Shown here: in pieces, positions 1,263-39,125 of the stretch | Layout of the letters: the number at the start of each line of letters is the position of its first letter | Numbering within the stretch: position 1 is the stretch's first letter | Made by a program: the position numbers and the translations under genes | Notes under the pieces: generated by a model | What the model was told of the DNA's origin: nothing | Databases searched by the model: none | The model's input: the letters and a program-made list of their open reading frames with translations, nothing else | Origin: Ruminococcus sp. | Lineage (GTDB): Bacteria; Bacillota; Clostridia; Oscillospirales; Ruminococcaceae | Reading direction: 5' to 3' | Length of the DNA stretch: 39,493 nucleotides | Assembly (NCBI GenBank): GCA_017460665.1 | Contig: JAFUAO010000077.1 | Location: 1-39,493, forward strand

Positions 1263-1294
1263 CGAGGTATAAGATATTGGGAGGGAGCTTTTCC

Positions 1295-2989
1295 ATGATA
1301 AAAAAACTACTATCCGTATCCACGGCAGTCCTGCTCTTTGCCTTGGCAGCTCTGCCCTTCCCGGCGGCAGCCGAGGACTCAGGGGACCGGCTCCGGAAGG
1401 TGGCCAGCAGCTTCGGGGCGGACACAGACTACCTAGCCTTGCAGAATTTCGCCTACGACCTGCCCTACGGGGATGACCTCTCACGGTACCGGCACTTCGT
1501 TCCCCTTGTGCCTCAGAGCACCGTCCGTGAGTGGAGCTCAGAGCTGCCTTGGTACAGCGACATAAGCCTGGGAGTATCCCGGCTGGAGATCACCTCCCAC
1601 AACGGCAGCCTCTACGACTTCGACCAGGAGGTGAGCTGCCTAAAAGACGTGGCGATCGAGGACTATGTGATCAGTATCGCCGAGATACGGCAGGAGCTTT
1701 TTGATCAGAGCAAATTCCGTCTTGCGGCAGGCTATCGCATCCACACGCAGAGCCCTCAGGAGAAGATCGCCGCCCTGCTGGAAACTGCACAGGTCTGCGG
1801 CGACCTGGGCAAGTACTTCCTCATAATGTACGGCAGCTATCCCGACCAGCCCCTTGGCGAGGACGAGAAAAATTCCGGCGTGAACAGGCCCCTTTCGACC
1901 CACTGTGCCGTCGGTATGGGAGTTTGCCATGGGAGCTGGCAGTTCGGAGACCGCACCTTCGACTGCTGCATAATGACCCTTGACAACGAGAACATCGAGG
2001 AGCTGGGCGAGGCCTTCAACGAGCGCACCTGCATCTATGTGGACTCCGAAACGCTGGACTACTACGTCCCGTACTATTCTGACAGCGTGGAGGGCGAGCT
2101 CCACATCATCGGCCTTGATCTGGACGAGCTGGAAGAGGAGGCGAAGAACGTCACCGACGTGTGCCTGTTCAACAAGGACTACTACATGGGCTATACGGTG
2201 CTGACCATTGATGATGACGGCGTGATGTACTCTCTGGACGAGTATAACGACTTTGAGGACGAGTTCCATAGTCCTCTGAATAACGAGATCTTTCTGGAGA
2301 CAAGGCCCTTTACGGTGCTCTGCCGGGCAAAGGACTCTACCCACCATTTCTCCAGGATCTATGCGGAGAACTACTACCGCAAGTCTGAGGCTTCCCTTAC
2401 CGGAAGAGACTCAGATCTGACTGTCACGCCGAACAGCTATAAGGTCAAGTGCTGTCCCTTGACCGAGGACGGCATCAACCAGTCCAAGAAGACCACCTAT
2501 CAGATCTATTCCAAGGACAACGACGGCACCAAGACCCGTCTTGACTGGCTGTTTTCCGGGAAGACCTCCGGCTCGGCCTACTATGAGCTTAAGGACAAGA
2601 CCGTCCTCTTCGACCCCGGAGATGTGGACGAGCCGGCTGCTGTTTGGATGACCTGCGATGACGGGGCCAGCGGCTTCAACTACTGGCTGAAGCTGTATAC
2701 CTCAAACCCCGTGCTGGTGGCTCTGAACAAGGACTTCGAGGTGGATCTCTTCATCGATCCGGACGGCGACGGGGAGTTCGACAAGGCGGTCGAGAGCGGC
2801 GATGTGAACTGCGACGGCTATGTGGACGCCTCTGACGCCTCGCTGGTGCTGGTGGAGTATGCCACGGCGCTTACCGGCGGAGAGGGCGTGCTGAACTTCA
2901 AGCGTGCCGACGTGAACGGCGACAATACCGTTGATGCCTCCGACGCCTCGGAGATACTGGTGATCTACTCCGGGCGCATGACCTCCTGA
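1295..2989 (+). CDS. Secreted dockerin protein, possible papain-like-fold domain
   Basis: Secreted 564-aa protein that should dock into a cellulosome. The start is ATG at 1295, about 10 bases after GGGAGG; a TTG at 1277 would place the ribosome binding site inside the gene. Residues 1-27 form a signal peptide (MIKKLL, hydrophobic core, AAA-E). The C-terminus, about 503-564, is a type I dockerin with two Ca-binding repeats (GDVNCDGYVDASDAS and ADVNGDNTVDASDAS). The middle is not firmly assigned. A segment with STHCAVGMGV, then a WQFG strand and a C-MTLDNEN strand, resembles the His-containing half of C39/papain-like domains, but no N-terminal catalytic Cys motif is visible. It may be a degenerate peptidase or an unrelated beta-rich domain. 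It has its own promoter. Confidence 0.75.
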   Translation: MIKKLLSVSTAVLLFALAALPFPAAAEDSGDRLRKVASSFGADTDYLALQNFAYDLPYGDDLSRYRHFVPLVPQSTVREWSSELPWYSDISLGVSRLEITSHNGSLYDFDQEVSCLKDVAIEDYVISIAEIRQELFDQSKFRLAAGYRIHTQSPQEKIAALLETAQVCGDLGKYFLIMYGSYPDQPLGEDEKNSGVNRPLSTHCAVGMGVCHGSWQFGDRTFDCCIMTLDNENIEELGEAFNERTCIYVDSETLDYYVPYYSDSVEGELHIIGLDLDELEEEAKNVTDVCLFNKDYYMGYTVLTIDDDGVMYSLDEYNDFEDEFHSPLNNEIFLETRPFTVLCRAKDSTHHFSRIYAENYYRKSEASLTGRDSDLTVTPNSYKVKCCPLTEDGINQSKKTTYQIYSKDNDGTKTRLDWLFSGKTSGSAYYELKDKTVLFDPGDVDEPAAVWMTCDDGASGFNYWLKLYTSNPVLVALNKDFEVDLFIDPDGDGEFDKAVESGDVNCDGYVDASDASLVLVEYATALTGGEGVLNFKRADVNGDNTVDASDASEILVIYSGRMTS

Positions 2990-3130
2990 CATTTTCACTA
3001 AACGGCAGAGCCCGCTGTTGTGCATTGCTACAAAGAAGCTAGTGAGCGCAAGAGTTTTCCCCTCCTAAAACGACTAACTATATGAAAGGCCAAGACCTGG
3101 CCGAACGGACCGTTAACAGGAGGTGTTACT

Positions 3131-3895
3131 ATGAAAAAACTCATATCTTTCATTCTTGCTGCTGTTGTTATGACAGCCGCCATGCCTTTGGGGATCGAAG
3201 GGACGAGCCGGATCCCGGCTGCCGCCTTAGCCGCCGATGCTGCAAAGACCGGCAGGAGCTACTCTGACAGTGAGGAGCTGAAGGCCCTGCTGGTATCTCC
3301 CGACGGCAGCTTCTCCGGCGGCGAGGGCATCGACGGGACCAAGTACAAGACCGACGTCAAGCTGGGAGCCGGCTATAACGGGAGCAGCGATATGCTGATC
3401 GTTTACGGCCTTGAGAGCACCGACCAGATCGGAGAGGTGCTCACGGAGCTGGGCGGCCACGGCTACATGATGGCCGGCGACCCGGAGGACTACTGCGGCT
3501 GCGTGAAGACGATCGGCTATTTCGACCAGGAGCTCAAGATCCAGACCGATCGGCTCCTACATATACAGTTCTTCGTGAAGGACCGGATGCCCGGCTTCAT
3601 GACGGCCTTCGACCTGTTCGATGAGTACGATCTGGTGGAGGCAACGAAGGCCTTCGGCTTCGACCCGGCGCCCTATGTCTTCGGAACGATCGCTCCCGGA
3701 GACGCCGATAACGACGGGAAGGTCACTGCTGCGGACGCCTCGCTGACCTTGGCGGCCTACGCTGAGCTCATGACGGGAGCTGCCATGGACCTGAACATGA
3801 CGATCTTCGACTACAACGATGACGGAGCTATCGACGCTGCCGACAGCTCTGAGATGCTGGAGACCTACGCTGACAACATGACATCGGTCAAATGA
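3131..3895 (+). CDS. Small secreted dockerin protein of unknown function
   Basis: 254-aa predicted secreted protein. MKKLISFILAAVVMTAAM is a clear signal peptide start, with likely cleavage after an Ala-rich stretch near residue 37. AGGAGG lies 7 bases upstream of the ATG. The C-terminus, about 190-252, is a type I dockerin (GDADNDGKVTAADAS, then FDYNDDGAIDAADSS). The intervening 150 residues match no family I recognise, and no glycoside hydrolase signature is visible. The dockerin is closely related to that of the preceding gene (ADAS/SDAS recognition residues, YA followed by MTS at the end) and unlike those of the following gene and the GH5 enzyme. It is flanked on the right by a terminator, so it is probably monocistronic. 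Confidence 0.75.
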   Translation: MKKLISFILAAVVMTAAMPLGIEGTSRIPAAALAADAAKTGRSYSDSEELKALLVSPDGSFSGGEGIDGTKYKTDVKLGAGYNGSSDMLIVYGLESTDQIGEVLTELGGHGYMMAGDPEDYCGCVKTIGYFDQELKIQTDRLLHIQFFVKDRMPGFMTAFDLFDEYDLVEATKAFGFDPAPYVFGTIAPGDADNDGKVTAADASLTLAAYAELMTGAAMDLNMTIFDYNDDGAIDAADSSEMLETYADNMTSVK

Positions 3896-13442: not shown

Positions 13443-15578
13443 TTATCGGAGTGCATAGCCTGCGGGCAGCGGGAGCTCTGAAAGCTTGATCAGACCAGCG
13501 TCTACCATCTGGATCACTAGAGCGTCCAGACCGGAGACACCGTCTGTGCCGTCCACATCAGCGTTAGCTGCATTAGCCAGGGGGTACTTTGCAGGAAGGG
13601 CAGCATACTGGAGGATCGCAACAGCGTCGTTCAGGTTGACTGTGCCGTCGTTGTTAGCGTCACCGGGCTTCAGTGCAGGATCAGGACCGTCTGTAGGATC
13701 CTCAGAGTCGACAAAGCTGTAAGTAACGTCAGTTACCTTATCGAAGTTGCCCCAGATCTGGAACTCAGCCTGCTGAACGCTCTCGGGGATCTCGCTCAGT
13801 GCGAACTCCACCTTTAGAGTGCCGTCGTCCTGGAGAGTGCCGCTCCAGTTCTGCTGTGTCCACTCGTCCAGCATATAGCCCAGGCCTCCAGTCAGCTTTG
13901 TGCCGGAAGGACCGCTGACGATAACTGCCAGAGTGCTGTTCCTGTCAGCCTCAGAAAGGTCGATCTTAACGATCTTAGATGTAGGCTCGGGAATGTCGAT
14001 CTCGCCTGTAGGCTCATCAAGGATAGTGATGGACTCGATCGTTGAGGTCGAATCTGTCCTTGTCTGGATATGAGCGATAGAATCGGTGCTGGTGCCCCAA
14101 GCGTCAGGGAGCTGGCTCATGAGGAAGTAAGCGATGCCGTTCTCCTTATCTGTAACGTAGGGCTTGAGCTCTGTCCAGTTGGCGTAGCCTGAGTTAGAGA
14201 AGCAAAGTGAAGGAGTAGCGCCTGTGTACTTTACAGCGACTTCCTTGCCTTCGAGGTCGGCCCAGGTGATGTCCACGCCGGGGGTAGTGTTCTCGTATGT
14301 ATCAGCCTTAGCAGCGTCGATCTCAACAGGCCCCTGGAGGACTGTGTTGCCGTCGCTGATAGCCTGATGTGTGAGCTCAGGGAGGTGACCCTCGCTGCCC
14401 CACTGGATAGTGCTGTCGTTGATAACGCTCATCATAGCATCGACTACCTGCTCAGAGCCGTCATACCACTGGTAGGAGCTCCTGTTGATATAGCCGTGGC
14501 ACTCGCCGGGGTCCTTGGGGTTAGATGTAGTATTGTTGTCCCAGAGAACGCAGGGGATACCGTATTTCTTGGCAGTTGTGATGTAGGTGGTCGCCCATTC
14601 ACATCTTGCCTGAGTATTGCCGAAGTTAGAAGCGCCCATCTCGCCGATAACGACGGGGACGTTGTTGTCGATGAAGGTATTTCTGATGTTTGTGAGGATG
14701 CCCTCCAGCTCGGTGCTGAACTGAGAGGTGAAGGTATCATGCTGGCCGCCTGTGCCGGTGTTCATAGTGAAGTTATAGGGGCTGTAGGCGTGGATAGATA
14801 CCGCAACATAGGGGTCGTCCGGAACGTCGATAGCATCGATGAATACCGACTCATGGCTTGCGCAGTAGCCCGGGAGCATCAGCAGACGGGTCTTAGCGTA
14901 GGGGCTGTCGGAGCTTCTGATCAGGTCAACGAAGTTGTGCTCCAGCTTGTTGATGACATCGGACTCCTGGACAGGTGAGGCAGACCACCACTCATATGTA
15001 GCGCCAACAGCACGGGGCTCGTTCATGCACTCGAAGATGAGGTGCTGATCGTAGTCCTTGAACTCCTCGTTGATCTGGGTCCAGATCTTCATAAGTCTGG
15101 GATTGATCTGATCATAGGCAGTGAGGAGGTCGCTCCTGTTGATCCAGTTCTCATGGTGGACGTTAAGGATCACATACATATCGTTCTTGATACCGTAGTC
15201 GACAACTTCCTTGACTCTGGCCATCCACGCAGGATCGATATTGTCGTCCCCGTCGAGGTGCTGGAACCAAGTGGTAGGTACACGGACCGTGTTGAAGCCC
15301 TTAGCCTTGATAGCGTTGAAGAGCTCCTGAGTAGCCTTAGGGCAGCCCCAAGCGGTCTCGGTATCCAGTCCGGTGTGAGTCGAATCGCCGGTGGCATCAA
15401 GAGTGTTTCCCAAATTCCAGCCGATGGACATTTCCTCGGTGATCTGGAAAGCGGACTTTGTGGCGGCCGCATCAGCCTCAACGGGCGTGATAGGAGCGAC
15501 CGTCAGCGCAGAGAGCATACAAACGGCGGCAGCCGAGATGCTTACGAAGCGCTTTACAGTGTTCTTTTCGTTAAACAT
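13443..15578 (-). CDS. GH5 endo-beta-glucanase with CBM-like modules and dockerin
   Basis: 711-aa secreted cellulosomal enzyme. Signal peptide 1 to about 36. The GH5 catalytic domain, about 40-387, looks like subfamily 4 (GWNLGNTLDA, TVRVPTTW, ILNVHHE). The acid/base glutamate lies in ECMNEPR (E187) and the nucleophile in VVIGEMGAS (E313). Two beta-rich segments follow (about 410-500 and 530-630); the second, with GTKLTGGLGYMLDEW and EFQIWGNF, looks like a Ruminococcus carbohydrate-binding module. A type I dockerin (from 639; GDANNDGTVNLNDAVAIL, DVDGTDGVSGLDALVI) ends the protein. GGGAGG precedes the ATG. GH5_4 enzymes cleave beta-1,4-glucan, mixed-linkage glucan or xyloglucan; the exact substrate is not readable. 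It is transcribed alone from its own promoter. Confidence 0.93.
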   Translation of the reverse strand: MFNEKNTVKRFVSISAAAVCMLSALTVAPITPVEADAAATKSAFQITEEMSIGWNLGNTLDATGDSTHTGLDTETAWGCPKATQELFNAIKAKGFNTVRVPTTWFQHLDGDDNIDPAWMARVKEVVDYGIKNDMYVILNVHHENWINRSDLLTAYDQINPRLMKIWTQINEEFKDYDQHLIFECMNEPRAVGATYEWWSASPVQESDVINKLEHNFVDLIRSSDSPYAKTRLLMLPGYCASHESVFIDAIDVPDDPYVAVSIHAYSPYNFTMNTGTGGQHDTFTSQFSTELEGILTNIRNTFIDNNVPVVIGEMGASNFGNTQARCEWATTYITTAKKYGIPCVLWDNNTTSNPKDPGECHGYINRSSYQWYDGSEQVVDAMMSVINDSTIQWGSEGHLPELTHQAISDGNTVLQGPVEIDAAKADTYENTTPGVDITWADLEGKEVAVKYTGATPSLCFSNSGYANWTELKPYVTDKENGIAYFLMSQLPDAWGTSTDSIAHIQTRTDSTSTIESITILDEPTGEIDIPEPTSKIVKIDLSEADRNSTLAVIVSGPSGTKLTGGLGYMLDEWTQQNWSGTLQDDGTLKVEFALSEIPESVQQAEFQIWGNFDKVTDVTYSFVDSEDPTDGPDPALKPGDANNDGTVNLNDAVAILQYAALPAKYPLANAANADVDGTDGVSGLDALVIQMVDAGLIKLSELPLPAGYALR

Positions 15579-20295: not shown

Positions 20296-20781
20296 ATGAA
20301 AAATATCCGGATCCTTGGGATAGATCCAGGCTATGCGATCGTCGGCTTCGGCGTGCTGGAATACGACGGCGTCAGCTTCACGCCGCTGGAATACGGCGCC
20401 GTCCTCACCGACGCAGGCACGCCCTTCCCCGAAAGGCTCAGGGCGATCCACGAGGACATCGAGTTCATCTTCGATAAGTTCAGGCCCGACTGCATGGCGA
20501 TAGAGCGGCTATACTTCACCACCAACCAAAAGACCGCTATCGACGTGGCTCAGGCGAGAGGAGTCACCGTGCTCTCCGCCGCCAAAAGGGGAGTCCCCGT
20601 TTCTGAGTACACCCCCCTCCAGGTCAAGCAGTCCGTGGTGGGCTACGGAAAGGCCGAGAAGCGTCAGGTCATGGAGATGACCAGACAGATCCTGAAGCTG
20701 GCCCAGATCCCTAAGCCCGACGACGCCGCAGACGCCCTTGCCATAGCCATTTGCCACGGCCACTCCATTCGCTGGAGCTGA
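20296..20781 (+). CDS. ruvC: Holliday junction resolvase RuvC
   Basis: 161-aa endonuclease that cuts Holliday junctions after branch migration by RuvAB. The acidic active-site residues are all visible: D10 in GIDPGYAIVGFG, E70 in AIERLYF, and the pair in PDDAADALAIAICH (about D143 and D146). The length is standard. GGGAGG lies upstream of the ATG. It is the first gene of a long plus-strand run with ruvA (21 bases away), an SseB-like gene and ruvB. Confidence 0.96.
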   Translation: MKNIRILGIDPGYAIVGFGVLEYDGVSFTPLEYGAVLTDAGTPFPERLRAIHEDIEFIFDKFRPDCMAIERLYFTTNQKTAIDVAQARGVTVLSAAKRGVPVSEYTPLQVKQSVVGYGKAEKRQVMEMTRQILKLAQIPKPDDAADALAIAICHGHSIRWS

Positions 20782-20802
20782 CCGGAGATAAGGATTGATG
20801 TT

Positions 20803-21420
20803 ATGATCTACAGTTTAAGAGGAAGGCTGACCGTCCGTGAGCTGGGCTTCGTCGTCATAGAATGCGGCGGAGTAGGCTACGGCTGCCGGACCTCCTACAG
20901 CACAGTCTCTCAGCTCGGGAGCATCGGCAGCGAGGAGACTCTCTATACCTACCTTTACGTCCGTGAGGACGCAGTGGAGCTCTTCGGCTTCGCAACTCAG
21001 CAGGAGCTGAGCTGCTTCAAGCTCCTGATCTCAGTGTCAGGGGTCGGGCCAAAGGCGGCTACGTCGATCCTCTCGGATATGACCCCGGAGCGGTTCGCCT
21101 TCTTCGTTGCCTCCGGCGACAGCAAGGCCTTCACCCGGACAAAGGGCATCGGTGCGAAAACAGCTCAGAGGATCGTCCTTGAGCTGAAGGATAAGATCTC
21201 GGCGGAGTCCCTCAGCGGCTCTGTGGCCAGCGATGCGGCGGCTATCTCGGCAGTCTCGTCGGGAGCAGCCTCCACCTCAGTGACCGAGGCTCTTGAGGCC
21301 CTTATGGTGCTTGGCTATTCTCAGGGAGAGGTGGCGCCTATCCTCGGGAAGCTGGACGCCGGCCTCAGCACTCAGGATCTTATCAAGGAGACCCTAAGGA
21401 TCATTACAGCGAAGCGCTGA
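20803..21420 (+). CDS. ruvA: Holliday junction branch-migration subunit RuvA
   Basis: 205-aa DNA-binding tetramer subunit that holds the Holliday junction for RuvB. The N-terminal OB-fold (MIYSLRGRLTVRELGFVVIE, VREDAVELFGFA) is followed by the tandem helix-hairpin-helix domain (LLISVSGVGPKAATSIL; TKGIGAKTAQRIVLELKDK). A flexible Ser/Ala linker leads to the C-terminal RuvB-contact domain (ALMVLGYSQGEVAPIL). The length is standard and the ATG follows AAGGA. Confidence 0.96.
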   Translation: MIYSLRGRLTVRELGFVVIECGGVGYGCRTSYSTVSQLGSIGSEETLYTYLYVREDAVELFGFATQQELSCFKLLISVSGVGPKAATSILSDMTPERFAFFVASGDSKAFTRTKGIGAKTAQRIVLELKDKISAESLSGSVASDAAAISAVSSGAASTSVTEALEALMVLGYSQGEVAPILGKLDAGLSTQDLIKETLRIITAKR

Positions 21421-21448
21421 ATTTATATATGAAAGGAAGAAATGACTT

Positions 21449-22180
21449 ATGAACCTCGATGAACTTTTGAAGGCAGCGATAAAGGACCCCTCGAAGCGGT
21501 CGCTGTTCCTACAGACACTGATCAAGAGCGACGTGTACGTTATCTGCAAAAATCCCGTCCGCCAGGAGCGTGGCCGTGAGGAAGGCGGTATCCAGCTTGA
21601 GTTGATCACGATCCAAAATCCCCACGGGGATATGTTCATCCCCTTCTTTACCAGCTACCGCTCGCTCCAGCAGTTCGCTAAGCGCTATGTGGACTGCTAT
21701 AAGATCAACTGCCTGAGGCTCTTCGACCTTATCCAGTCAGTATCAGCGGTGCTCAACCCCAATTCCTACGGCAAGGAGTTCTCCTCGCAGGAGATCAAGA
21801 GCATCCTCCTCATCGCCCGCAACCTTAAGATCAAGGCGATCTCCTACAACGAGGCCGACATCATCTCCTACCGCCCGGTAGAGCACTCTGTGACACATAT
21901 CACCAAGGCTGCGTCGAAGTTCCTTGCAAAGCAGCCCAACGTTGACCGGGCCTTCATCATGGAGATGATCAAGGGCTGTGAGCGGCCCCAGATACTTATG
22001 GTGCTGGATATGATGGGCAGCACCAGGAAGCTCTTCGTGCCTCTTTCCAAGTACCTCTCGAAGACCGTCAAGGCCAACGAGCACCTGTGCTTCATCAGCT
22101 ATGAGCAGGATATGGGCAAGAAGGCTGCCGAGACAGTGGAGCCCTTCTATGTCCGCAAGAAGAGATATTTTGAGAAATAA
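21449..22180 (+). CDS. SseB-family protein
   Basis: 243-aa soluble protein resembling the SseB family. The N-terminal half has LITIQNPHGDMFIPFFTSYRSLQQF, the typical core in which an importable value is compared with file-like text of the form PFFTS-x-Q-F. The C-terminal half (FIMEMIKGC, QILMVLDMMGS, VPLSKYLS) looks like SseB C-terminal domains. Its biochemical role is not known; E. coli SseB was named for a serine-sensitivity phenotype. AAAGGAAG precedes the ATG. It sits between ruvA and ruvB, 28 bases after ruvA and 30 before ruvB, an uncommon insertion into a usually contiguous pair. Confidence 0.75.
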   Translation: MNLDELLKAAIKDPSKRSLFLQTLIKSDVYVICKNPVRQERGREEGGIQLELITIQNPHGDMFIPFFTSYRSLQQFAKRYVDCYKINCLRLFDLIQSVSAVLNPNSYGKEFSSQEIKSILLIARNLKIKAISYNEADIISYRPVEHSVTHITKAASKFLAKQPNVDRAFIMEMIKGCERPQILMVLDMMGSTRKLFVPLSKYLSKTVKANEHLCFISYEQDMGKKAAETVEPFYVRKKRYFEK

Positions 22181-22210
22181 CAGACCCTATGCAGCACTGG
22201 AGGTGTTGAT

Positions 22211-23266
22211 TTGATCCAGACAGAGGATATGGAGTTCGCTCCGAGAGTCATAACTCCCTCCGAGACTGCGGAGGACGGCGACATCGAGCTCAGCCTCCGC
22301 CCCCAGACCCTGAACGAGTATATCGGCCAGGACAAGGTCAAGGAGAACCTGGCCGTATATATCGAGGCTGCAAGGCGCCGCAGCGAGCCCCTGGACCACG
22401 TCCTGCTCTACGGCCCTCCCGGACTGGGAAAGACCACCCTTTCGTCCATCATCGCCCATGAGCTGGGAGTAAATCTCCGTGTGACCACCGGGCCGGCTAT
22501 CGAAAAGCCCGGGGATCTTGTGTCGCTGCTGACCAGCCTTTCGGACAACGACGTGCTGTTCATCGACGAGATCCACCGGCTCTCCCGTGCTGTGGAGGAG
22601 ATCCTCTACCCGGCGCTGGAGGACAGGGTCATCGACATAATCATCGGCAAGGGCCCCTCTGCACGTTCGATCCGCATGGACCTGAAGCCCTTCACCCTTA
22701 TCGGTGCAACTACCCGTGCAGGCCAGCTCTCTGCGCCCCTCCGTGACCGATTTGGAGTGATCCAGCGCCTTGAGCTCTACACCAAGGACCAGCTCACGGA
22801 CATCGTCCGCAGGAGCGCTATGATCCTCGGGATACCCTGTACCACCGACGGTGCCGCTGAGGTGGCCGGAAGAGCAAGAGGCACGCCCCGTATCGCAAAC
22901 AGGCTGCTCAAGCGTGTCAGGGATTTCGCCGACGTCATGGGCAACGGCCAGATCACTAAGGAGATCGCCTCGATCGCCCTGAGCCGCCTTGAGATAGACT
23001 CCCTTGGCCTTGACAGCCTCGACAGGAGGGTCCTTGAAATGATCATCCGCGGCTACGGCGGAGGTCCCGTGGGCCTTGAGACCCTTGCGGCGGCTATCGG
23101 CGAGGAGTCAGTGACCCTTGAGGACATCTGCGAGCCCTTCCTCATGCAGCTCGGCTTCTTGGGGAGGACCCCAAAGGGCAGGGTCGCCACGAGGCTGGCA
23201 TACGAGCACCTTGGCTTGAAGGCTCCCGACGCTCCGCCCTCGGACGACGGGCAGCTCTCCTTTTGA
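22211..23266 (+). CDS. ruvB: Holliday junction branch-migration ATPase RuvB
   Basis: 351-aa AAA+ motor that drives branch migration with RuvA. Walker [10 protein letters not shown] (68-76), Walker [11 protein letters not shown], sensor 1 LIGATTRAG and the arginine-finger region LRDRFGV are intact. The winged-helix domain includes [19 protein letters not shown]. The start is TTG at 22211 with GGAGGT 6 bases upstream; ATG at 22229 has no site as good. It ends 3 bases before the next possible start. Confidence 0.96.
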
Positions 23267-23269
23267 GCC

Positions 23270-23824
23270 GTGCTCATCAAGGGCTCACGGAGGTACAACC
23301 TCCGGCACAACAGCTCCCTGAGGGACGGTATGCTCCCCCACCGCATGATAAACGGTCAGGCTATGGGCAGGGTCTCAGAGATGAGGTACGGCCTTTGCCA
23401 TATGAGCTTCAACGGCTGTGAGGTGATCTCGGTCTACAATGCGCTGCTTTGGCAGGGCAGGCCCCAGGAGCTCTGGGAGATCGCAGGGACCCTGGAGCGT
23501 TCAAAGGTCTTATTAGGTATCTTCGGCTGCAGTCCGTATAAGCTGGGGCGAGCTCTCGGCAAATACGGCGCAGCTTTTGAGCGTATTAGACGGATCACGC
23601 CCCAACATGATGCCTTCATAGTCTCGTTCTGGACCGGGAGGAGGTTCCTCTCCTCCATACACACGGTCTTCTGCGTGAGGAAGGCCACAGGGATACTGGT
23701 GTACAACAGGTATAATAACTGCCCCAACGTCCAGCTCTGCAAAACGCTGGAGGAGGTCATCGGCAGGAAGAGGCCCATTGCGGCCTATTGGATAAAGTCA
23801 GACAAAAAGGAGAACGATCAATGA
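23270..23824 (+). CDS. Small protein with papain-like-fold Cys-His-Asn pattern
   Basis: 184 aa if started at the GTG (23270), which has no ribosome binding site. ATG at 23330, after GAGGG, is the better-supported start and would give 164 aa. No named family was recognised with confidence. The segment SFNGCEVISVYNALLWQG resembles the nucleophile helix of C39/papain-like proteins. A later SIHTVFC strand and VYNRYNN would provide His and Asn (C50, H131 and N146 or N149 in the longer numbering). It may be a cysteine peptidase-fold protein acting on an unknown substrate. No signal peptide is seen. Its last codons overlap the start of the GlmM-like gene (ATGA). A GGAGGT/ACCTCC hairpin lies at 23288-23304. 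Confidence 0.55.
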   Translation: MLIKGSRRYNLRHNSSLRDGMLPHRMINGQAMGRVSEMRYGLCHMSFNGCEVISVYNALLWQGRPQELWEIAGTLERSKVLLGIFGCSPYKLGRALGKYGAAFERIRRITPQHDAFIVSFWTGRRFLSSIHTVFCVRKATGILVYNRYNNCPNVQLCKTLEEVIGRKRPIAAYWIKSDKKENDQ

Positions 23825-25173
23825 GCAGACTCTTCGGAAAGGAAGGCATCAGGGGCGTTGCGGTCACCGAGCTGACAGCAGAGATGTGTATGCAGATCGG
23901 GCGTGCCGCCGCTGCCGTTATGGAAGGAAACTCCGGCGAAAGGACCAGGATCTTGATCGGCAAGGATACCCGGAGCTCCTCGGATACTCTCGAGGCGGCC
24001 CTCTGTGCAGGGATCTGCTCTGCGGGAGCCGATGCCGAGCTTCTGGGAGTAGTGCCGGCGTCGGCTCTGGCTTACCTTATCGGCGAGCACGAGGCCGACG
24101 GCGGGATCATGATAACGGCTGCTCATGTGGGAGCCGAATTCGGCGGCATGAAGCTGTTCTCCTCCTACGGGTACAGGCTCTCCGACGAGGACGAGGAGGA
24201 GATCGAGCGCCTTGTGACAGTGGATACGGCCGAGCTGAAGCCGATCCCCAGACGGATCTACGGCAGCGTCCGCCGCTGCGATACCGGGATAGAGGAGTAC
24301 CTTGACCACATAAGGAGCCTCAGCGATACGGATCTTTCCGGGCTGAAGATCGCTCTGGACTGTGCAAACGGCTGCGCCTCCGTCACGGCGAAGGAGATCT
24401 TCACCGGGCTTGGTGCGGAGGTGGTCCTCATGGGCAGCGACCCCGACGGCACTAACATAAACCTCGACTGCGGAAGCACCCACATCGACCGGCTCATGGA
24501 CCTGGTGAAGGAGAACGAGTGCGACTGCGGACTGGCCTTCGACGGCGCCGCAGAGAGATGCCTTGCAGTCGATGAGAACGGCAGGCTCGCCGACGGCGAC
24601 GAGCTGATAGCGATCTGTGCAAAGCACATGAAGGAGAAGGGCACCCTCCGCCACAATACCCTTGTGGTGACTGCCGCCAATAACCTTGGACTGCTGCATT
24701 TCGCCCGTGAGAACGGAATCTATACCGTCCAGGCCGGATCTGCCGGGCGGTACCTCCACAGGAAGATGCTGGAGGGCGGCTTCTCGCTGGGCGGAGATCC
24801 CGGCGGACAGATCATATTTCCCGACGACGCCCCCTCCGCCGACGGCCAGCTCACCGGCATAAGGCTGCTGGAGATCCTGAAGGAGTCAGGCGGAAAGATG
24901 AGCCAGCTCACCGGCGTCATCAAGAAGCTGCCTCAGGTCATGATCAATGTCCAGATCTCTCCCAAGGACAGGGAGCTCTGGAAGAACGACAGAGCGATCA
25001 CCGGCCTTATCGACGAGTTCGAGGAGATCCTCGGCGAGGAGGGCAGGATCATCGTCCGGGAGGCCGGACGTACCCCCGTTATCCGCATAATGGTGGAGGG
25101 CGAGGACTTCACTACCATAAATACTATGGCGATACAGGTCGCCGATACTATAAAGGAACGCTGCGGACAGTGA
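23821..25173 (+). CDS. GlmM-like phosphohexomutase homologue, catalytic residues lost
   Basis: 450-aa protein with the full four-domain layout of phosphoglucosamine mutase (GlmM): RLFGKEGIRG at the N-terminus, DVENG-like DCANG, and a normal length. Every catalytic loop is changed. Alanine (A101, ITAAHVG) replaces the phosphoserine of SASHNP. The metal loop DGDGDR reads DGAAER (241-246). The sugar-binding loop GGEQSGH reads GGDPGGQ (324-330). The phosphate loop RPSGTEP reads REAGRTP (413-419). The frame is intact, so this is probably a conserved pseudoenzyme rather than a decaying gene. The start is ATG at 23821 (AAGGAG 8 bases upstream), overlapping the previous stop. A regulatory or scaffolding role in cell-wall precursor metabolism is speculative. 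Confidence 0.8.
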   Translation: MSRLFGKEGIRGVAVTELTAEMCMQIGRAAAAVMEGNSGERTRILIGKDTRSSSDTLEAALCAGICSAGADAELLGVVPASALAYLIGEHEADGGIMITAAHVGAEFGGMKLFSSYGYRLSDEDEEEIERLVTVDTAELKPIPRRIYGSVRRCDTGIEEYLDHIRSLSDTDLSGLKIALDCANGCASVTAKEIFTGLGAEVVLMGSDPDGTNINLDCGSTHIDRLMDLVKENECDCGLAFDGAAERCLAVDENGRLADGDELIAICAKHMKEKGTLRHNTLVVTAANNLGLLHFARENGIYTVQAGSAGRYLHRKMLEGGFSLGGDPGGQIIFPDDAPSADGQLTGIRLLEILKESGGKMSQLTGVIKKLPQVMINVQISPKDRELWKNDRAITGLIDEFEEILGEEGRIIVREAGRTPVIRIMVEGEDFTTINTMAIQVADTIKERCGQ

Positions 25174-25194: not shown

Positions 25195-26058
25195 TTGAGA
25201 ACAGCCAATAACTGGAAGGACTATACCATACTTGACGCATCAGACGGCGAAAAGCTGGAAAAATGGGGAGATGTCAGCCTTGTGAGGCCCGACCCCCAGA
25301 TCATCTGGAAGACCGAGAGGAGGGACCCCCTCTGGACCGGCGCCGACGGCCACTATCACCGCTCAAATCAGGGCGGCGGCCAGTGGGAGTTCCGCAGGAA
25401 GCTGGAGAGCTCGTGGAACATCCGCTATAAGGAGCTGACCTTCAATATCCGTCCCACCGGCTTCAAGCACACCGGGCTCTTCCCGGAGCAGGCCGTGAAC
25501 TGGGACTTCATGGCGGACAAGATCCGCAGCGCCGGCAGGGAGATAAACGTACTGAACCTGTTCGCATACACCGGCGGAGCTACCCTTGCCTGCGCCGCAG
25601 CAGGAGCCTCGGTGTGCCATGTGGACGCCTCAAAGGGCATGGTCCAGTGGGCAAGGGAGAACGCTGCGGCCTCGGGGCTCTCGGAGAAGCCGGTGCGCTG
25701 GATCGTGGACGACTGTGAGAAGTTCATCGCCCGTGAGATCCGCAGAGGAAGGCGCTACGACGCCGTAGTCATGGATCCGCCCAGCTACGGGAGAGGTCCC
25801 GGCGGCGAGGTCTGGAAGCTGGAGAACTGCGTCTACGACCTGGTCAAGCTCTCGGCAGGAGCCCTCTCGGAGGACCCGCTGTTCTTCCTGATAAACAGCT
25901 ATACCACTGGGCTCTCGCCTTCGGTGATGGGCTATATACTGGGAAGCGTGCTGACGGATAGGTTCGGCGGAGAGGTCTCCTTCGATGAGATCGGGCTGCC
26001 GGTGAAGTCTACAGGTATGGCTCTGCCCTGCGGCTCTACCGCTATCTGGCAGAGATAA
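25195..26058 (+). CDS. RlmI-like class I SAM-dependent methyltransferase
   Basis: 287-aa methyltransferase resembling the catalytic part of RlmI-type rRNA methyltransferases but without an N-terminal PUA domain. The SAM-binding motif I region is NLFAYTGGATLACAA (about 121-135), the acidic motif II is CHVDASKGMVQWA, and the catalytic-type motif is DPPSYGRG (about 195). HTGLFPEQ before motif I is typical. The substrate, probably rRNA or another RNA, is not settled by sequence. The start is TTG at 25195, 9 bases after GAGGAG, 21 bases after the GlmM-like gene. Confidence 0.82.
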   Translation: MRTANNWKDYTILDASDGEKLEKWGDVSLVRPDPQIIWKTERRDPLWTGADGHYHRSNQGGGQWEFRRKLESSWNIRYKELTFNIRPTGFKHTGLFPEQAVNWDFMADKIRSAGREINVLNLFAYTGGATLACAAAGASVCHVDASKGMVQWARENAAASGLSEKPVRWIVDDCEKFIAREIRRGRRYDAVVMDPPSYGRGPGGEVWKLENCVYDLVKLSAGALSEDPLFFLINSYTTGLSPSVMGYILGSVLTDRFGGEVSFDEIGLPVKSTGMALPCGSTAIWQR

Positions 26059-26091: not shown

Positions 26092-26940
26092 ATGGGAAAG
26101 ATCATTGAGATAAAGGACCTGCACTTCTCCTATAAGGGGGACGAGGGCTCTCCCGATGTGGAGGTGCTAAAGGGCATCGACCTCACCGTCGAGCAGGGCG
26201 AATTCGTGGCTGTGCTCGGGCATAACGGCTCTGGGAAATCCACCCTTGCCAAGCACATCAATGCGATCCTGCTGCCCACCTCGGGAAAGGTGCTGGTGGA
26301 CGGGATAGATACCTCCGACGAGCAGCGGCTCTTCGACCTGCGCCAGCGTGCGGGCATGGTGTTCCAAAACCCGGATAATCAGATAGTTTCCTCCGTCGTG
26401 GAGGAGGACGTGGCCTTCGCTCTGGAAAACCTCGGCGTCCCCTATGAGGAGATGCGCCGTAGAGTTGACGAGTCGCTGAAGGCTGTTGATATGTATGAGT
26501 ACAGGCTCCATTCTCCCAGCCAGCTCTCAGGCGGCCAGAAGCAGCGGATCGCTATCGCCGGAGTCATCGCTATGGAGCCGAAATGTATCATCCTTGACGA
26601 GCCTACGGCTATGCTGGACCCCCAGGGCCGGCGTGAGGTCATGGCTACGATCAAGCGCATGAACCGTGAGAAGGGCGTTACGATCGTCCTGATCACTCAT
26701 TATATGGACGAGGCCGCTCAGTGCAGGAGAGTGGTGGTCATGGACAAGGGGAGGATCGTCATGGACGACTCTCCCAGAGCAGTTTTCTCACAGGTGGAGC
26801 AGGTCAAGAGCATCGGCCTTGACGTTCCGCAGGTCACTGAGCTGGCGTGGGAGCTGCGAAAGGCAGGCTGCGACATACCCGGTGATATACTCACCGAGGA
26901 GGAGTGCGCCGACGCTATCGAAAAGCTATTCAGCAAATGA
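26092..26940 (+). CDS. ecfA1: Energy-coupling factor transporter ATPase EcfA1
   Basis: 282-aa ABC ATPase that powers ECF-type vitamin and metal uptake, working as a heterodimer with EcfA2 on EcfT. Walker [10 protein letters not shown] (43-51), Q-loop [10 protein letters not shown], signature LSGGQKQR (about 145), Walker [13 protein letters not shown] and a switch His in LITHYMDE are intact. The [12 protein letters not shown] tail is characteristic. No substrate-binding S component is nearby, indicating a shared group II module. In most Firmicutes ecfA2 follows directly; here a TIR-LRR gene intervenes, starting 15 bases after the stop. Confidence 0.95.
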
Positions 26941-26954
26941 CAAGAGGTGATAAG

Positions 26955-28694
26955 ATGAACAGCAAGCCCGTTCCCTACGCAGGAAATGAGCCGTATATCT
27001 TCGTGAGCTACTCCCACAAGGACAACGATCAGGTCTACCCGATGATCGAGAAAATGCAGCAGGAGGGCTATCGGGTGTGGTACGACGACGGGATCGACCC
27101 GGCCAGCGGCTACGCAAAGAATATCGCACAGCACATTTCCGGCTGCGGCTATTTCATGGCCTTTGTCAGCCCGGGGTTCATCACCTCGGAGTTCTGTCTC
27201 AACGAGATCGACAGGGCAAGGCGCAAGGGCAAGCCCCTGCTGATGATCTTCCTCTCCGAGCCGGACCAGCTTGAGGAGCTGGACAACTACGGGGAGTTCG
27301 ACCTGCTCTACAGCCGCATACAGGCTATCATAAAGTGCCGCTTCAAGGACGAGGCGGCCTTCTGGGAGAAGCTGACCACCGCCAAGGGCATAGATACCTG
27401 CCGGGGCGAGGTGCCTTCTCAGCAAAGCGAGTTGGTCCGCAGGGACGGCTTCATCATCGAGCCTGACACAGGGAGGCTGGTGGCCGTTGAGGACCGTGAG
27501 GCCAGGCAGCTCCGCCTTCCCGACTATGTGAGGACCGTTGGTCCCGGCGTGCTCAGCGGACTTCCCTTTACCGAGAGGATCATCGTCCCGGAAACGGTGG
27601 AGCTCATAGAGGCGGAGGGCTTCACGGAGTGTCCGGAGCTCAACGCCGTGATCTTCTTCGGACAGGATACCCGGCTCCAGAACGGGGACTATTTCAGCGG
27701 AACGGCCTGTGAGGTCTGGTGTCTGCCGGGCTCGTCGGTGGACGAGTACATGAGAAGGGCCTACGATCCGGGGCTGGAGCACATCGGCGAGCCCTTTGAG
27801 AAGAACGGCTTCCTGTGCTATTTCTACGACCCGGAGAACGACTGCGTCCCGGTCTTCTACGACCCAAACGGCGACCTTGTTTACTGCGATGAGACTGAGA
27901 AGCTGGCGATGTTTGAAGGCGCTGCGCCTGTGAGCGCTCCGAAAAAGCCTGAGCCTCTTTATTCGACCCCTGAGACCGACCCCGGTGACTTCGAGATCAA
28001 GGGCACGGCCCTGGTGAAGTACAATGGCAGCGCCGAGCGTGTCAGCCTGAAGGGGAGCGGCATCACCGAGATCTGCAGAGCCTTTGTCGGCAAGAGGGGC
28101 CTTAAAGAGATCTGGCTCCCGGAGACCCTGCTGACGATCGAGGACGGGGCCTTTTCCAATACGAGTCTCACTGAGATAGAGCTCCCTGAGACAGTCTCGA
28201 CGATCGGCAGCTTCTCCTTCGACGGCACAAGGATCCGCAAGATCCGCCTTCCGGCAGAGACAAGATATGTAGATAGCTGCGCCTTTGACTTCCAATTCGT
28301 GGAGGAGATCACAGTAGACGAGGACTCGGAGCACTACCGTGCCGAGAACGGCATTCTGATCTCAAAGGAGGACAGCGGGGTGGTGGCCTACGCCGGAGGA
28401 AGGCCTGATGAGACCTGCACCATACCGGAGGGCGTCAGGGAGATCGGTATGTACTGCTTTAGGGAATGTCCGTCGCTCAGGAGCGTGACGCTCCCAAGGT
28501 CCGTGAAAAGTATCGGCGCCCACAGCTTCTGCGGCTGCCCTGAGCTAAAGGAGGTCTTCGTACCCTCCAGCGTGGAGTCCATACATAAGACGTGCTTCAC
28601 CGAAAACGGAGCCGGCTTCACCCTGAGGGTCAAGCGCTTCTCCTACGCAAAGAAGTGGGCAGAGCGCCAACAGATAAGATCAACCTACTATTAA
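26955..28694 (+). CDS. TIR-domain protein with BspA-type leucine-rich repeats
   Basis: 579-aa protein with no signal peptide. Residues 12-140 form a TIR domain: FVSYSHKDN (box 1), GYRVWYDDGI (BB region) and FVSPGFITSEFCLNEIDRA, with the glutamate E84 at the place of the NADase catalytic residue of SARM1-like TIRs. After a partly unassigned middle (about 150-340), BspA-type leucine-rich repeats cover about 350-575 (LKEIWLPETLLTIEDGAFSN, LRSVTLPRSVKSIGAHSF). The start is ATG at 26955 (AGAGGTGA 6 bases upstream). It fits tightly between ecfA1 and ecfA2; the ribosome binding site of ecfA2 begins at the base after its stop. TIR proteins in bacteria often act as NAD-cleaving defence effectors with a sensor domain; the LRRs could sense. 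Enzymatic activity is unproven. Confidence 0.85.
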   Translation: MNSKPVPYAGNEPYIFVSYSHKDNDQVYPMIEKMQQEGYRVWYDDGIDPASGYAKNIAQHISGCGYFMAFVSPGFITSEFCLNEIDRARRKGKPLLMIFLSEPDQLEELDNYGEFDLLYSRIQAIIKCRFKDEAAFWEKLTTAKGIDTCRGEVPSQQSELVRRDGFIIEPDTGRLVAVEDREARQLRLPDYVRTVGPGVLSGLPFTERIIVPETVELIEAEGFTECPELNAVIFFGQDTRLQNGDYFSGTACEVWCLPGSSVDEYMRRAYDPGLEHIGEPFEKNGFLCYFYDPENDCVPVFYDPNGDLVYCDETEKLAMFEGAAPVSAPKKPEPLYSTPETDPGDFEIKGTALVKYNGSAERVSLKGSGITEICRAFVGKRGLKEIWLPETLLTIEDGAFSNTSLTEIELPETVSTIGSFSFDGTRIRKIRLPAETRYVDSCAFDFQFVEEITVDEDSEHYRAENGILISKEDSGVVAYAGGRPDETCTIPEGVREIGMYCFRECPSLRSVTLPRSVKSIGAHSFCGCPELKEVFVPSSVESIHKTCFTENGAGFTLRVKRFSYAKKWAERQQIRSTYY

Positions 28695-36144: not shown

Positions 36145-38460
36145 ATGATAATGTGCAGCAACTGCAAAAAACGGCCCGCCGTGGTGTTCATCACCTCTGT
36201 GCAGGGCAACGAAAAGAAAAACGAGGGTCTCTGCCTCGCTTGTGCAAGAGACCGGAAGATCCCCCAGGTGGCGGATTATATGGAGAAGCTGGGCATCACC
36301 GATGAGGAGATCGACCAGCTCTCAGACCAGATGATGGGTATGCTTGACGGCGACAGCTTTGAAATGGGCGGCTCAGGCCTTATGCCCGACTTCATCGCCA
36401 ATATGTTCGGCGTCAACGAAAAGGACGAGAGCTCCCCGGAGACAGCCTCCGACAGCGAGCCCTCAGACCAGGAGAAGCCCCAGCGCAAGAGCCCCTTCGG
36501 AAAGAAGAAGGAGAAGAACGACAGCGGCCGCAAGGAGCTGAAATTCCTTGACAGCTACTGCACCGACCTCTCCCAGAGAGCCGCAGACGGCCAGCTGGAC
36601 CGCATCATAGGAAGGGATAAGGAGATCGCAAGAGTGATCCAGATCCTCTCCCGAAGGACCAAGAACAACCCCTGCCTGATCGGTGAGCCCGGCGTCGGAA
36701 AGACCGCTATCGCCGAGGGCATCGCTCAGCGCATAAACGAGGGCAATGTGCCCTTGAACCTTGCCGACAAGAGGCTCTACCTCCTTGACCTTACCGCTCT
36801 GGTGGCCGGGACCCAGTTCCGTGGCCAGTTCGAGAGCCGTGTGAAGGGACTTGTGGACGAGGTGAAGCGTGAGGGGAACATCATCCTCTTCATCGACGAG
36901 GTCCACAACCTTGTGGGCGCAGGAGACTCAGAGGGCTCTATGAACGCCGCTAATATCCTCAAGCCCGCCCTCTCAAGAGGCGAGGTCCAGGTGATCGGAG
37001 CTACCACCTTCGGCGAGTACAGAAAGTATATCGAGAAGGACTCCGCTCTGGAGCGCCGCTTCCAGCCCGTTACAGTTACTGAGCCGACTATCGAGGACAC
37101 GGTCAGCGTCCTCATGGGCATAAAAAAATACTACGAGGAATACCACAAGGTACATATCTCTGACTACCTTGTGAGAGCCTGCGCAGTTCTGTCTGAGAGA
37201 TATATCACCGACCGCTTCCTGCCGGATAAGGCTATCGACCTGCTGGACGAGGGCTGTGCTCATGCCAATATCCGCACGCCCGAGATCGCAAGGTACGCAA
37301 AGCTCTCAAAGGAGATCCAGGTCATGGAGAGCCTTGAGAAGTCTATGTCTGAGCAGCCTGAGCCCGATTATAAGGCCGTGGCCGAGCTCAAAAGCAAGCT
37401 GATCCACAGCCGTGAGGAGCTCGCTCCTCTGAAGGAGAAGGCCGAGAACGTGCAGGTGGAGGAGTCCGACATCACCAAGGTGGTGGAGCTTTGGACTGGT
37501 ATCCCGGCCAGCAAGATCGCCGAGAACGAGTTCCTGAAGATCGCAAGGCTGGAGGAAGCCCTTAAAAAGCGTGTTCTGGGCCAGGACGAGGCCGTTGAGG
37601 TCCTCACAAAGGCCATCAAGAGGACCAGGGTCCAGCTCAGCAAGCGCAGAAGACCTGCTTCGTTCATCTTCGTTGGACCTACCGGCGTGGGCAAGACCGA
37701 GCTGGTGAAGGTGCTGGCGGAGGAGCTCTTCGACTCGCCGGAGCCTCTGATCAGGCTGGATATGACCGAGTATATGGAGAAGCACTCCGTTGCAAGGATG
37801 ATCGGTTCGCCTCCCGGCTATGTTGGCTACGACGAGGCCGGCCAGCTCACCGAAAAGGTCCGCAGGAGGCCCTATTCCGTGATCCTCTTCGACGAGATCG
37901 AGAAGGCTCACCCTGACGTTATGAATATCCTTATGCAGATCCTTGACGAGGGCAAGGTGGACGACGCCCACGGCAGGACCGTGAACTTCGAGAATACGAT
38001 CATCTGTATGACCTCCAACGCCGGCTCTGTGGACAAGAGCGTGGGCGTGGGCTTCAACAGGACCATCGACGAGATCTCAAGGGATAAGGCCATGAAGGGA
38101 CTGAGAGAGTTCCTGAGGCCTGAGTTCATCAGCCGTATCGACGAGATCGTGGTGTTCCGCCAGCTCACCAAGGAGGACTTCGCCAAGATCGCCGCCCTTA
38201 TGCTTGACGAGATGAAGGAGCCCCTTGCCGATAAGAGCATCAGCCTTAGCTATGACCAGCCCGCCCTTGACCTTATTGCGGAGAAGTCCTTCGGCAAGCC
38301 CTACGGCGCAAGAGACATCCGCAGAGTGATCCGTCAGGAGGTAGAGGATAAGGTGGCTGAGATCATCATCGAGAACGCCTCGGGAACTGACGTTATCAGC
38401 GTCACCGCTGAGGACGGCGAGCTCAAAGTCACCGGCAGGAAGGAGAACGATCAGGAATGA
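36145..38460 (+). CDS. Zinc-finger Clp ATPase (ClpE/ClpC type)
   Basis: 771-aa Hsp100 unfoldase with two AAA+ modules. The N-terminus is a four-cysteine zinc finger (C4, C7, C30, C33) like that of ClpE and McsA, replacing the Clp N-domain. Then comes an acidic/basic linker. AAA1 has Walker A GEPGVGKT (about 180-187), a short coiled-coil middle domain covers about 385-455, and AAA2 has Walker A GPTGVGKT (about 511-518). VGVGF, a candidate ClpP-docking VGF loop, lies near residue 635, so it probably feeds ClpP. The start is ATG (36145), 10 bases after AGGAGG. No CtsR box is visible. It is coupled (ATGA) to the cohesin-like lipoprotein. Confidence 0.88.
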
Positions 38461-39125
38461 AGCTGAGACTTACGGCTCTGGCAGCAGCCCTGCTCCTTGG
38501 AGCAGCCTCTGTCACGGCCTGCGGAGATAAAAAGAGCAGCAGCTCCGACGTGGATATGGACACCTACAAAAACGGCGAGAGCTCTGCTTCAAATGACGTT
38601 GCGGAGGACTTCAAGGACGTTGCCCCTGTTTCTGATCAGGACGGCGCTCTGCTGACCATAAGCAACACGACAGCAAAGGCCGGCGAGACGGCTGAGATCA
38701 CGATCAGTGTCTCCAATGCCGATTATAAGTGGAATATGTGCGGCTTCCATGTGACATACCCCAACGTGCTCACGCCCCAGTTCTTCGAGAGGGAGCGCCG
38801 GCTGCTGAAATACGAGCCGGGCCACGCTATCGACTACGCTTCGGGATTCGTTGCCATGTGGTGGGAGGAGAACCTCCCTCAGGAGCTGATCGACCAGAAC
38901 AAGGGAGCCTTCTTCATAACCTCTATCTTCGACGACGACCGTGGACAGGACGGCGACATCGTTACGCTGTACTTCGATGTTCCTGCCGATGCCGAGAGCG
39001 GCACTGTCTACAACTTCGACTTCTACTACCAGACCGATGCGGTGTTCTCCAACGCCGCCAAGGATCCGGGCTACGATAAGTACGTCTTCGAGCACTGGAC
39101 AGGCGGGACTGTTACTGTTGAATAA
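38457..39125 (+). CDS. Lipoprotein with cohesin-like domain
   Basis: 222-aa predicted lipoprotein. Signal peptide [18 protein letters not shown] ends in a lipobox SVTAC (Cys 22), followed by a Ser/Asp-rich linker. Residues about 65-222 look like a cohesin. The opening LLTISNTTAKAGETAEITISVSN, the hydrophobic strand GFHVTYPNVL, the late GDIVTLYFDVPADAESGTVY with a following strand, and a final GTVTV strand match the family. If right, this lipid-anchored single cohesin would hold a dockerin protein at the outer face of the membrane. Its ATG overlaps the clpE-like stop. Sequence alone does not tell which dockerin type it binds. Confidence 0.7.
   Translation: MKLRLTALAAALLLGAASVTACGDKKSSSSDVDMDTYKNGESSASNDVAEDFKDVAPVSDQDGALLTISNTTAKAGETAEITISVSNADYKWNMCGFHVTYPNVLTPQFFERERRLLKYEPGHAIDYASGFVAMWWEENLPQELIDQNKGAFFITSIFDDDRGQDGDIVTLYFDVPADAESGTVYNFDFYYQTDAVFSNAAKDPGYDKYVFEHWTGGTVTVE

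Follow-up and report, generated by a model that had tools for sequence, protein, structure and literature searches.

A probable GlmM pseudoenzyme at the ancestral glmM locus of Ruminococcus, kept alongside a second GlmM

In this study, we analysed a contig of 39,493 nucleotides from a Ruminococcus sp. assembly (JAFUAO010000077.1 of GCA_017460665.1; the whole stretch is hereafter called the window) that encodes P0001, a homologue of the phosphoglucosamine mutase GlmM with altered catalytic loops. We find that this protein is probably a genuine pseudoenzyme of the family's native GlmM that retains a non-catalytic function centred on domain 4, in a genome that also encodes a second GlmM-like protein, P0002 (hereafter P2). 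In the history that we propose, domain 4 would already have given the native GlmM of this subfamily a second, non-catalytic job; P2 would have taken over the synthesis of glucosamine-1-phosphate; the catalytic site would then have been free to change once P2 had made catalysis dispensable; and after catalytic loss the protein would have been retained for its second job, most likely a scaffolding or regulatory role in amino-sugar or envelope metabolism that works through binding to another protein. The first-pass annotation of this DNA had foreseen neither the link to P2 nor the repeated losses, nor the domain-4 element.

Canonical GlmM proteins carry four catalytic loops: SASHNP (phosphoserine), DGDGDR (three metal Asp), GGEQSGH (sugar) and RPSGTEP or RxSGTEP (phosphate). 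The frame at 23821-25173 has 450 codons without an internal stop, its ATG overlaps the stop of the upstream gene as ATGA, and its product exceeds the Pfam cut-off for each of the four phosphohexomutase domains (PF02878, PF02879, PF02880 and PF00408). Translation and the Pfam matches confirm what the annotation had described, namely four altered loops in an intact, full-length frame with a start signal and an upstream overlap. P0001 scores 431.4 bits against the NCBIfam glmM model TIGR01455, narrowly missing the curated cut-off of 447.55, and a canonical native copy (L026) scores 565.6 bits, above it. Among the features expected of a GlmM, the phosphoserine (Ala101), the three metal Asp (DGAAER) and the phosphate loop (REAGRTP) are missing, and the two marks by which a pseudoenzyme is recognised from sequence, homology with loss of the catalytic residues and maintenance by selection, are both seen. 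Since the catalytic serine and a metal ligand are missing, we infer that the protein cannot act as a phosphoserine mutase. The closest named relative, a copy from an R. flavefaciens metagenome-assembled genome (L113; 92% identity), has three loops changed identically to the window copy and a fourth that differs by one residue (REAGRSP), and R. flavefaciens XPD3002 (L124), which is not labelled a metagenome-assembled genome, carries a different degraded form. Because a separate assembly shares the changes and XPD3002 is degraded too, a sequencing or assembly artefact is unlikely.

Three relatives of the window gene were found in its genome at E<0.001: the gene itself, P2, and a distant phosphoglucomutase-like protein of about 550 amino acids. 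P2 (463 amino acids, on another contig, 38% identical to the window protein) reads SASHNP, DGDADR, GGEQSGH and RESGTEP at the four loops and scores 528.5 bits against TIGR01455, well above the cut-off, and the cell is predicted to possess this canonical GlmM besides the window copy. The canonical glmM elsewhere in the genome that the annotation had proposed to look for is thus present, and the case of a cell with no other GlmM does not arise. The window homologue shares the locus ruvC-ruvA-(sseB)-ruvB-(orf184)-glmM-methyltransferase-ecfA1-ecfA2 in nearly all members of the genus with readable flanks, and the same glmM locus order is found in most readable genomes of the family's other genera, with P2 located elsewhere. 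In the single-GlmM genomes that were read, the copy at the ruvCAB-methyltransferase locus is canonical. Because the locus is conserved and its gene is canonical in single-GlmM genomes, 23821-25173 reads as the family's original (native), vertically inherited GlmM at the ancestral locus, and P2 as an additional copy.

Loss of catalytic residues in the native copy tracks the presence of P2 across the family. We scored 14 marker residues, chosen from the motifs of the first-pass annotation and from the family alignment (three in the Ser loop, four in the metal loop, three in the sugar loop and four in the phosphate loop), in 165 native copies. Five of these came from named contigs, three of them duplicating sampled genomes, and were excluded from the counts, which use copies with at most one unreadable marker and leave out the cut copies G025, G036, G051, G095 and G378; with further P2 carriers added afterwards, 114 P2 genomes had a native copy and 109 were countable. 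All 14 markers are retained in 65 of 69 native copies from genomes in which P2 was not found. Many genomes are fragmented assemblies, so that absence of P2 is uncertain in incomplete ones: the exceptions are G005, G037, G075 and G206, and in the first three, whose assemblies are 90, 73 and 70% complete, P2 may merely be missing from the assembly. Where P2 is present, 102 of 109 native copies keep fewer than 14 markers, comprising 64 genus copies with at most 11, 17 genus copies with 12-13 and 21 copies from other genera. The replacement of all four loops therefore holds for the window copy but not generally, as native copies of P2-bearing relatives range from 14 to 0 markers kept.

This association is supported by phylogenetic comparison. 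On a species-proxy tree (FastTree, neighbouring linked genes, 166 rows, incomplete genomes excluded), 11 independent pairs differ in P2; in a typical pairing degradation follows P2 in 8, opposes it in 0 and shows no difference in 3, and a few alternative pairings give 7 for, 0 against and 4 without difference (p 0.0078, up to 0.0156). Another tree, built from the native gene without its loops, whose rows are the lineages with Trp387 (a domain-4 residue described below) and five outgroup rows, needs at least five changes between intact and broken states, and the P2-free canonical Ruminococcus copies fall outside its degraded genus clade. Long branches leave the placement of g90, g96, g106 and G206, and the exact number of changes, unsure on this tree. 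A scheme with one loss per carrier genus was dropped, given the five or more changes and the long branches.

Several native copies and genomes fall between or outside these groups. Fifteen genus copies (genomes L030, L033-L035, L037-L040, L042, L044, L047-L049, L051 and L052) keep the Ser and all metal Asps and read SGSHN(S/G), GGEP(N/D)GH and RESGKEP; by these loops they are perhaps still active, perhaps at an early stage of loss. In G206 (99% complete), the degraded native GlmM has 5 of 14 markers and keeps WKNA, a relative of the upstream gene orf184 is present, and the only other phosphohexomutase found sits in a frame of about 600 amino acids. Neither GlmM type was found in L180, L182, L186, L185 and L181 (G158, G195, G170, G177 and G128), of which 4 of 5 are at 98-100% completeness. 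In 4 of these 5, the methyltransferase closely follows ruvB and the gap holds no native gene, and the only phosphohexomutases found sit in open frames of about 480-650 amino acids. By analogy, a phosphoglucomutase may perform the GlmM step in these genomes; the phosphoglucomutase PgcA of B. subtilis is reported to do so (PMC6797236).

The altered gene is under purifying selection. Between the window gene and its nearest relative (G012), the ratio of nonsynonymous to synonymous substitution rates (dN/dS), estimated with a pairwise codon model, is 0.058, with a likelihood ratio against 1 of 239. For twenty pairs of degraded genus copies, some sharing a genome, the ratio lies at 0.036-0.151 and a value of 1 is rejected for each (every likelihood ratio at or above 81); the range is 0.054-0.109 for four pairs of 12-13-marker copies, 0.034-0.077 for four canonical pairs, and 0.006-0.053 for ruvB in the same pairs where both genes are present. 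The dead protein is thus constrained nearly like a working GlmM, and less than its neighbours. Degraded pairs of other genera also lie far below 1 and were given little weight, their synonymous sites being saturated (synonymous divergence, dS, 2.3-30). For one degraded clade IQ-TREE returned an omega of 0.065, and the pairwise codon model was used instead. Of the 100 genus genomes sampled, 95 have a native copy, and its frame reaches or exceeds 420 amino acids in 89 of them; the six shorter frames are those of G078, G025 and four interrupted by a contig end. No methyltransferase was found in G040, G093 and G068, where the native gene was not judged, and other seemingly absent genes are mostly very diverged or cut. 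The annotation had proposed selection for a non-catalytic function such as regulation of a cyclic di-AMP synthase; its purifying selection and its second, canonical GlmM are borne out, and the regulatory role, by the known interface, is not.

What is conserved in the degraded copies points to domain 4. With domain boundaries that are approximate, set near the Pfam matches, the 43 canonical copies that lack Trp387 vary most in domain 4 (mean entropy 1.97, against 1.28-1.77 in the other domains), and in 67 degraded genus copies the entropy of domain 4 is 1.59, beside 1.84, 2.02 and 1.58 for domains 1-3. Among the largest gains of constraint in the genus are E385, W387, K388, N389, T394, E414, F430 and N434. 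Trp387 and Glu414 are invariant in the 87 degraded copies scored (67 from the genus, including the fragment G078, and 20 from other genera) and in all 17 genus copies that keep 12-13 markers; both residues are also retained in the cut copies G036, G051 and G378, and G025, G067 and G095 end before that part of the protein. Glu414 is found in 21 of 22 canonical copies with Trp387, as opposed to 2 of 43 without it. Canonical, P2-free Ruminococcus copies also carry the element (G030, G034 and G070 read KEVWKND; G016, G054 and G084 keep the Trp), as do, for Trp387, 16 of the 59 canonical copies from P2-free genomes of other genera. Because it is present in canonical P2-free copies, the element (Trp387, usually within WKND, and Glu414) predates the catalytic loss.

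The fate of the native gene outside the genus differs between lineages with and without Trp387. Among 396 family genomes searched, 64 outside the genus carry P2, and the native locus was judged in 56 (the remainder being G192, G330, G387, G419, G456, G457, G461 and G483). The gene was called deleted where ruvB stood close before the methyltransferase without a GlmM-like match between them, and the Trp387 state of deleted genes was taken from the nearest relatives on the tree. In Trp387 lineages with P2, 22 degraded copies were kept (g28, g44, g65, g71, g90, g96 and g106), 4 were deleted and 0 were intact, whereas in P2-bearing lineages without Trp387, 0 degraded copies were kept, 25 were deleted and 5 were intact. 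Trp387 is accordingly present in 22 of 22 P2 genomes that keep a broken copy and in 0 of 5 that keep an intact one; of the 22, G306 and G403 lack just one marker each, and the copy of G378 is cut. On balance we lean slightly towards the view that an unrecognised function of domain 4 (Trp387/WKND, Glu414, F430/N434) kept the dead GlmM in several lineages, and that where this element was missing the gene was either discarded or stayed intact.

Several observations weigh against this view and against the pseudoenzyme reading as a whole. P2 coexists with a fully canonical native copy in 7 genomes (G017, G045 and five genomes of three other genera), and G206 (L193) has a broken native copy without P2. 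Fifty of 87 degraded copies retain the catalytic Ser, and the 17 genus copies that lost just 1-2 of 14 markers may still be active. The entropy of domain 4 in the 20 degraded copies from outside the genus is 1.76, beside 1.73, 1.69 and 1.79 for the other domains, which is unexceptional except relative to canonical copies. Circular shifts lend the domain-4 contrast moderate support: 9 of 450 match it for degraded genus copies against canonical copies without Trp387, 17 of 450 against canonical copies with Trp387, and 25 of 450 for the other genera against canonical copies without Trp387. The gene has also been lost in Trp387 lineages outside the genus (G236 and three g94 genomes), and among the 100 genus genomes there are a stop (G025), an apparent frameshift (G078) and clean deletions in the sister genomes G015 and G097, P2 not being found in G097. 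Because Trp387 marks mostly one subclade, ancestry could explain part of its link to retention.

Some of these points would suit other explanations. The main alternative, suggested by the constraint on the altered loops, is a ligand sensor in which the altered cleft would bind a sugar phosphate or UDP-sugar without turnover and domain 4 would relay the signal. In 17 recent degraded pairs the altered loops evolve at a lower rate than the remainder of the protein (pooled dN/dS 0.055 vs 0.119; canonical loops are tighter still, at 0.015 vs 0.164 in nine pairs with dS near 1), and Ser-His, the first Asp and the Arg persist in many copies. However, structural glycines in the loops lower their rate, and G039 and G052, with 0 of 14 markers, still read REIWKND; we regard a sensor as possible but unlikely. 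A protein that is still a mutase, or a related phosphotransferase with altered chemistry or specificity, would agree with the catalytic Ser kept in over half of the degraded copies and with the 12-13-marker copies, which retain the Ser and every metal Asp and could well have activity. It is improbable for the window copy, where Ala replaces the phosphoserine, one metal Asp is gone and the phosphate loop no longer has its Ser and Thr, and across the degraded copies all three metal Asp are kept in 5 of 87 and the full SGT in 4 of 87.

Least probable of all, and very much so, is a redundant gene in slow decay after displacement that has not yet been lost. The degraded state does accompany P2, degraded proteins are more diverged than those of neighbouring genes, and the stop, the frameshift and the lost genes described above are of the kind that decay would leave. 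Yet dN/dS is far below 1 in all pairs tested, four of the six short frames are simply cut by a contig end, and domain 4 varies less among degraded genus copies than among canonical ones that lack Trp387. Decay as the main account was rejected on dN/dS, frame integrity and this constraint; the random decay in relatives that would have spoken against the first-pass proposal is for the most part not seen, those four genomes among 100 being its traces.

The annotation had also suggested that the protein, freed from catalysis, might regulate the cyclic di-AMP synthase CdaA. GlmM binds and inhibits CdaA/DacA in B. subtilis and S. aureus (PMC8573169, PMC6368335), and the former paper names the acidic GlmM residues D151, E154 and D195 as contacts of CdaA in B. 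subtilis. These align to R152, T155 and G196 in the window protein, positions at which family members differ, whether canonical or degraded, and Arg126 of CdaA, the residue that they contact, whose position we obtained by counting from the residues named in PMC8573169, aligns to Ser in this genome. The known B. subtilis contact is moreover in domain 2, whereas the constrained element here is domain 4. Because the known interface is absent on both the GlmM and the CdaA sides, the proposal is weakened and regulation of CdaA in the known way is not supported; we consider an inhibitor of CdaA quite improbable. The genome does carry cdaA, and the frame that comes after it is probably cdaR.

Pseudoenzymes are known in this superfamily, and what is new here is a bacterial GlmM case with an unusually clear, repeated evolutionary history. 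Among the matches listed in the literature that we searched, there was no report of a bacterial GlmM pseudoenzyme; most subscription journals lay outside its scope, and absence from print is not thereby shown. The window protein resembles GlmM (TIGR01455; 3pdk, 7ojr, 6gyz) in its four domains as predicted from sequence, its length, a near-full collinear alignment and descent, but it has lost the catalytic Ser, one metal Asp and the sugar and phosphate loops, scores below the cut-off and shows extra constraint on WKND. In bacteria, HisZ and the inactive dihydroorotase subunits are paralogues of metabolic enzymes that have lost catalysis and persist in a regulatory or assembly role; their folds are unrelated and their partners are known. 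In vertebrates, the phosphoglucomutase-superfamily pseudoenzyme PGM5 (aciculin) is reported to be inactive and to bind cytoskeletal partners (PMC5570346); it is related to PGM1 and belongs to the muscle cytoskeleton, in contrast to a bacterial GlmM whose loss, in several lineages, accompanies an additional GlmM. That GlmM can have a non-catalytic role besides its enzymatic one is itself known from its inhibition of CdaA/DacA (PMC6368335, PMC8573169), where the protein is an active enzyme that binds, in B. subtilis, via domain 2, through residues absent in the window protein.

Moonlighting by essential enzymes is hard to study because deletion kills the cell. Here evolution appears to have split the two jobs several times, with P2 doing the chemistry and the native copy the other job alone; the second GlmM function would therefore be open to simple gene removal. 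The repeated intermediates (14, 12-13, 5-8 and 0 of 14 markers) give material for tracing the route from enzyme to pseudoenzyme. There is also a trap for annotation, in that proteins of the window type score near the cut-off of the glmM model and could be labelled phosphoglucosamine mutase. Coordinates of the features discussed are given in Table 1.

Table 1. Position of the GlmM-like gene, its altered loops and domain-4 segments, and its neighbours in the window
Feature	Position	Strand	Basis or remark
Probable glmM-like pseudoenzyme coding sequence (P0001, 450 amino acids), native copy at ancestral family locus	23821..25173	+	frame, domains, dN/dS
AAGGAG ribosome-binding-like sequence, ATG 8 nucleotides downstream	23807..23812	+	sequence reading
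Former phosphoserine loop TAAHVG, residues 99-104	24115..24132	+	Ala101 replaces catalytic Ser
Former metal loop DGAAER, residues 241-246	24541..24558	+	Asp243 to Ala, Asp245 to Glu
Former sugar loop GGDPGGQ, residues 324-330	24790..24810	+	alignment with canonical copies
Domain-4 element ELWKNDRAIT, residues 385-394, Trp387	24973..25002	+	Trp387 in 67/67 degraded genus and 20/20 other-genus copies
Former phosphate loop REAGRTP, residues 413-419, with Glu414	25057..25077	+	loop's Ser and Thr lost
Second domain-4 segment EDFTTIN, residues 428-434, F430 and N434	25102..25122	+	F430 in 59/67, N434 in 63/67 degraded genus copies
ruvC-ruvA-SseB-like-ruvB, conserved upstream context	20296..23266	+	domain matches, synteny
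orf184, 184 amino acids, overlapping upstream neighbour, nearly genus-restricted	23270..23824	+	no known family
S-adenosylmethionine-dependent methyltransferase, conserved downstream context	25195..26058	+	domain matches, synteny

The gene that overlaps the start of the GlmM-like frame, orf184, is found in 88 genus genomes and in one genome outside the genus (G206), and no match to it was found in Pfam, NCBIfam, PADLOC or PDB. Its strongly conserved motifs, MSFNGCEVI, HTVFC and YN.YN, suggest a Cys-His-Asn (C39/papain-like) peptidase. As a general partner of the pseudoenzyme orf184 was rejected: of the 39 Trp387 genomes outside the genus, the 22 with at least 700 upstream bases were judged, and 21 of the 22 lack an orf184-like gene, the exception being G206.

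Elsewhere in the window, the frame at 26904-28694, between two ecfA-like ATPase genes, encodes a TIR domain fused to BspA-type leucine-rich repeats and has weak matches to ThsB-like TIR defence proteins. Genes of cellulosome type lie at 1277-3895, 13443-15578 and 38457-39125, with dockerins, a GH5 cellulase with a dockerin, and a cohesin-domain protein.

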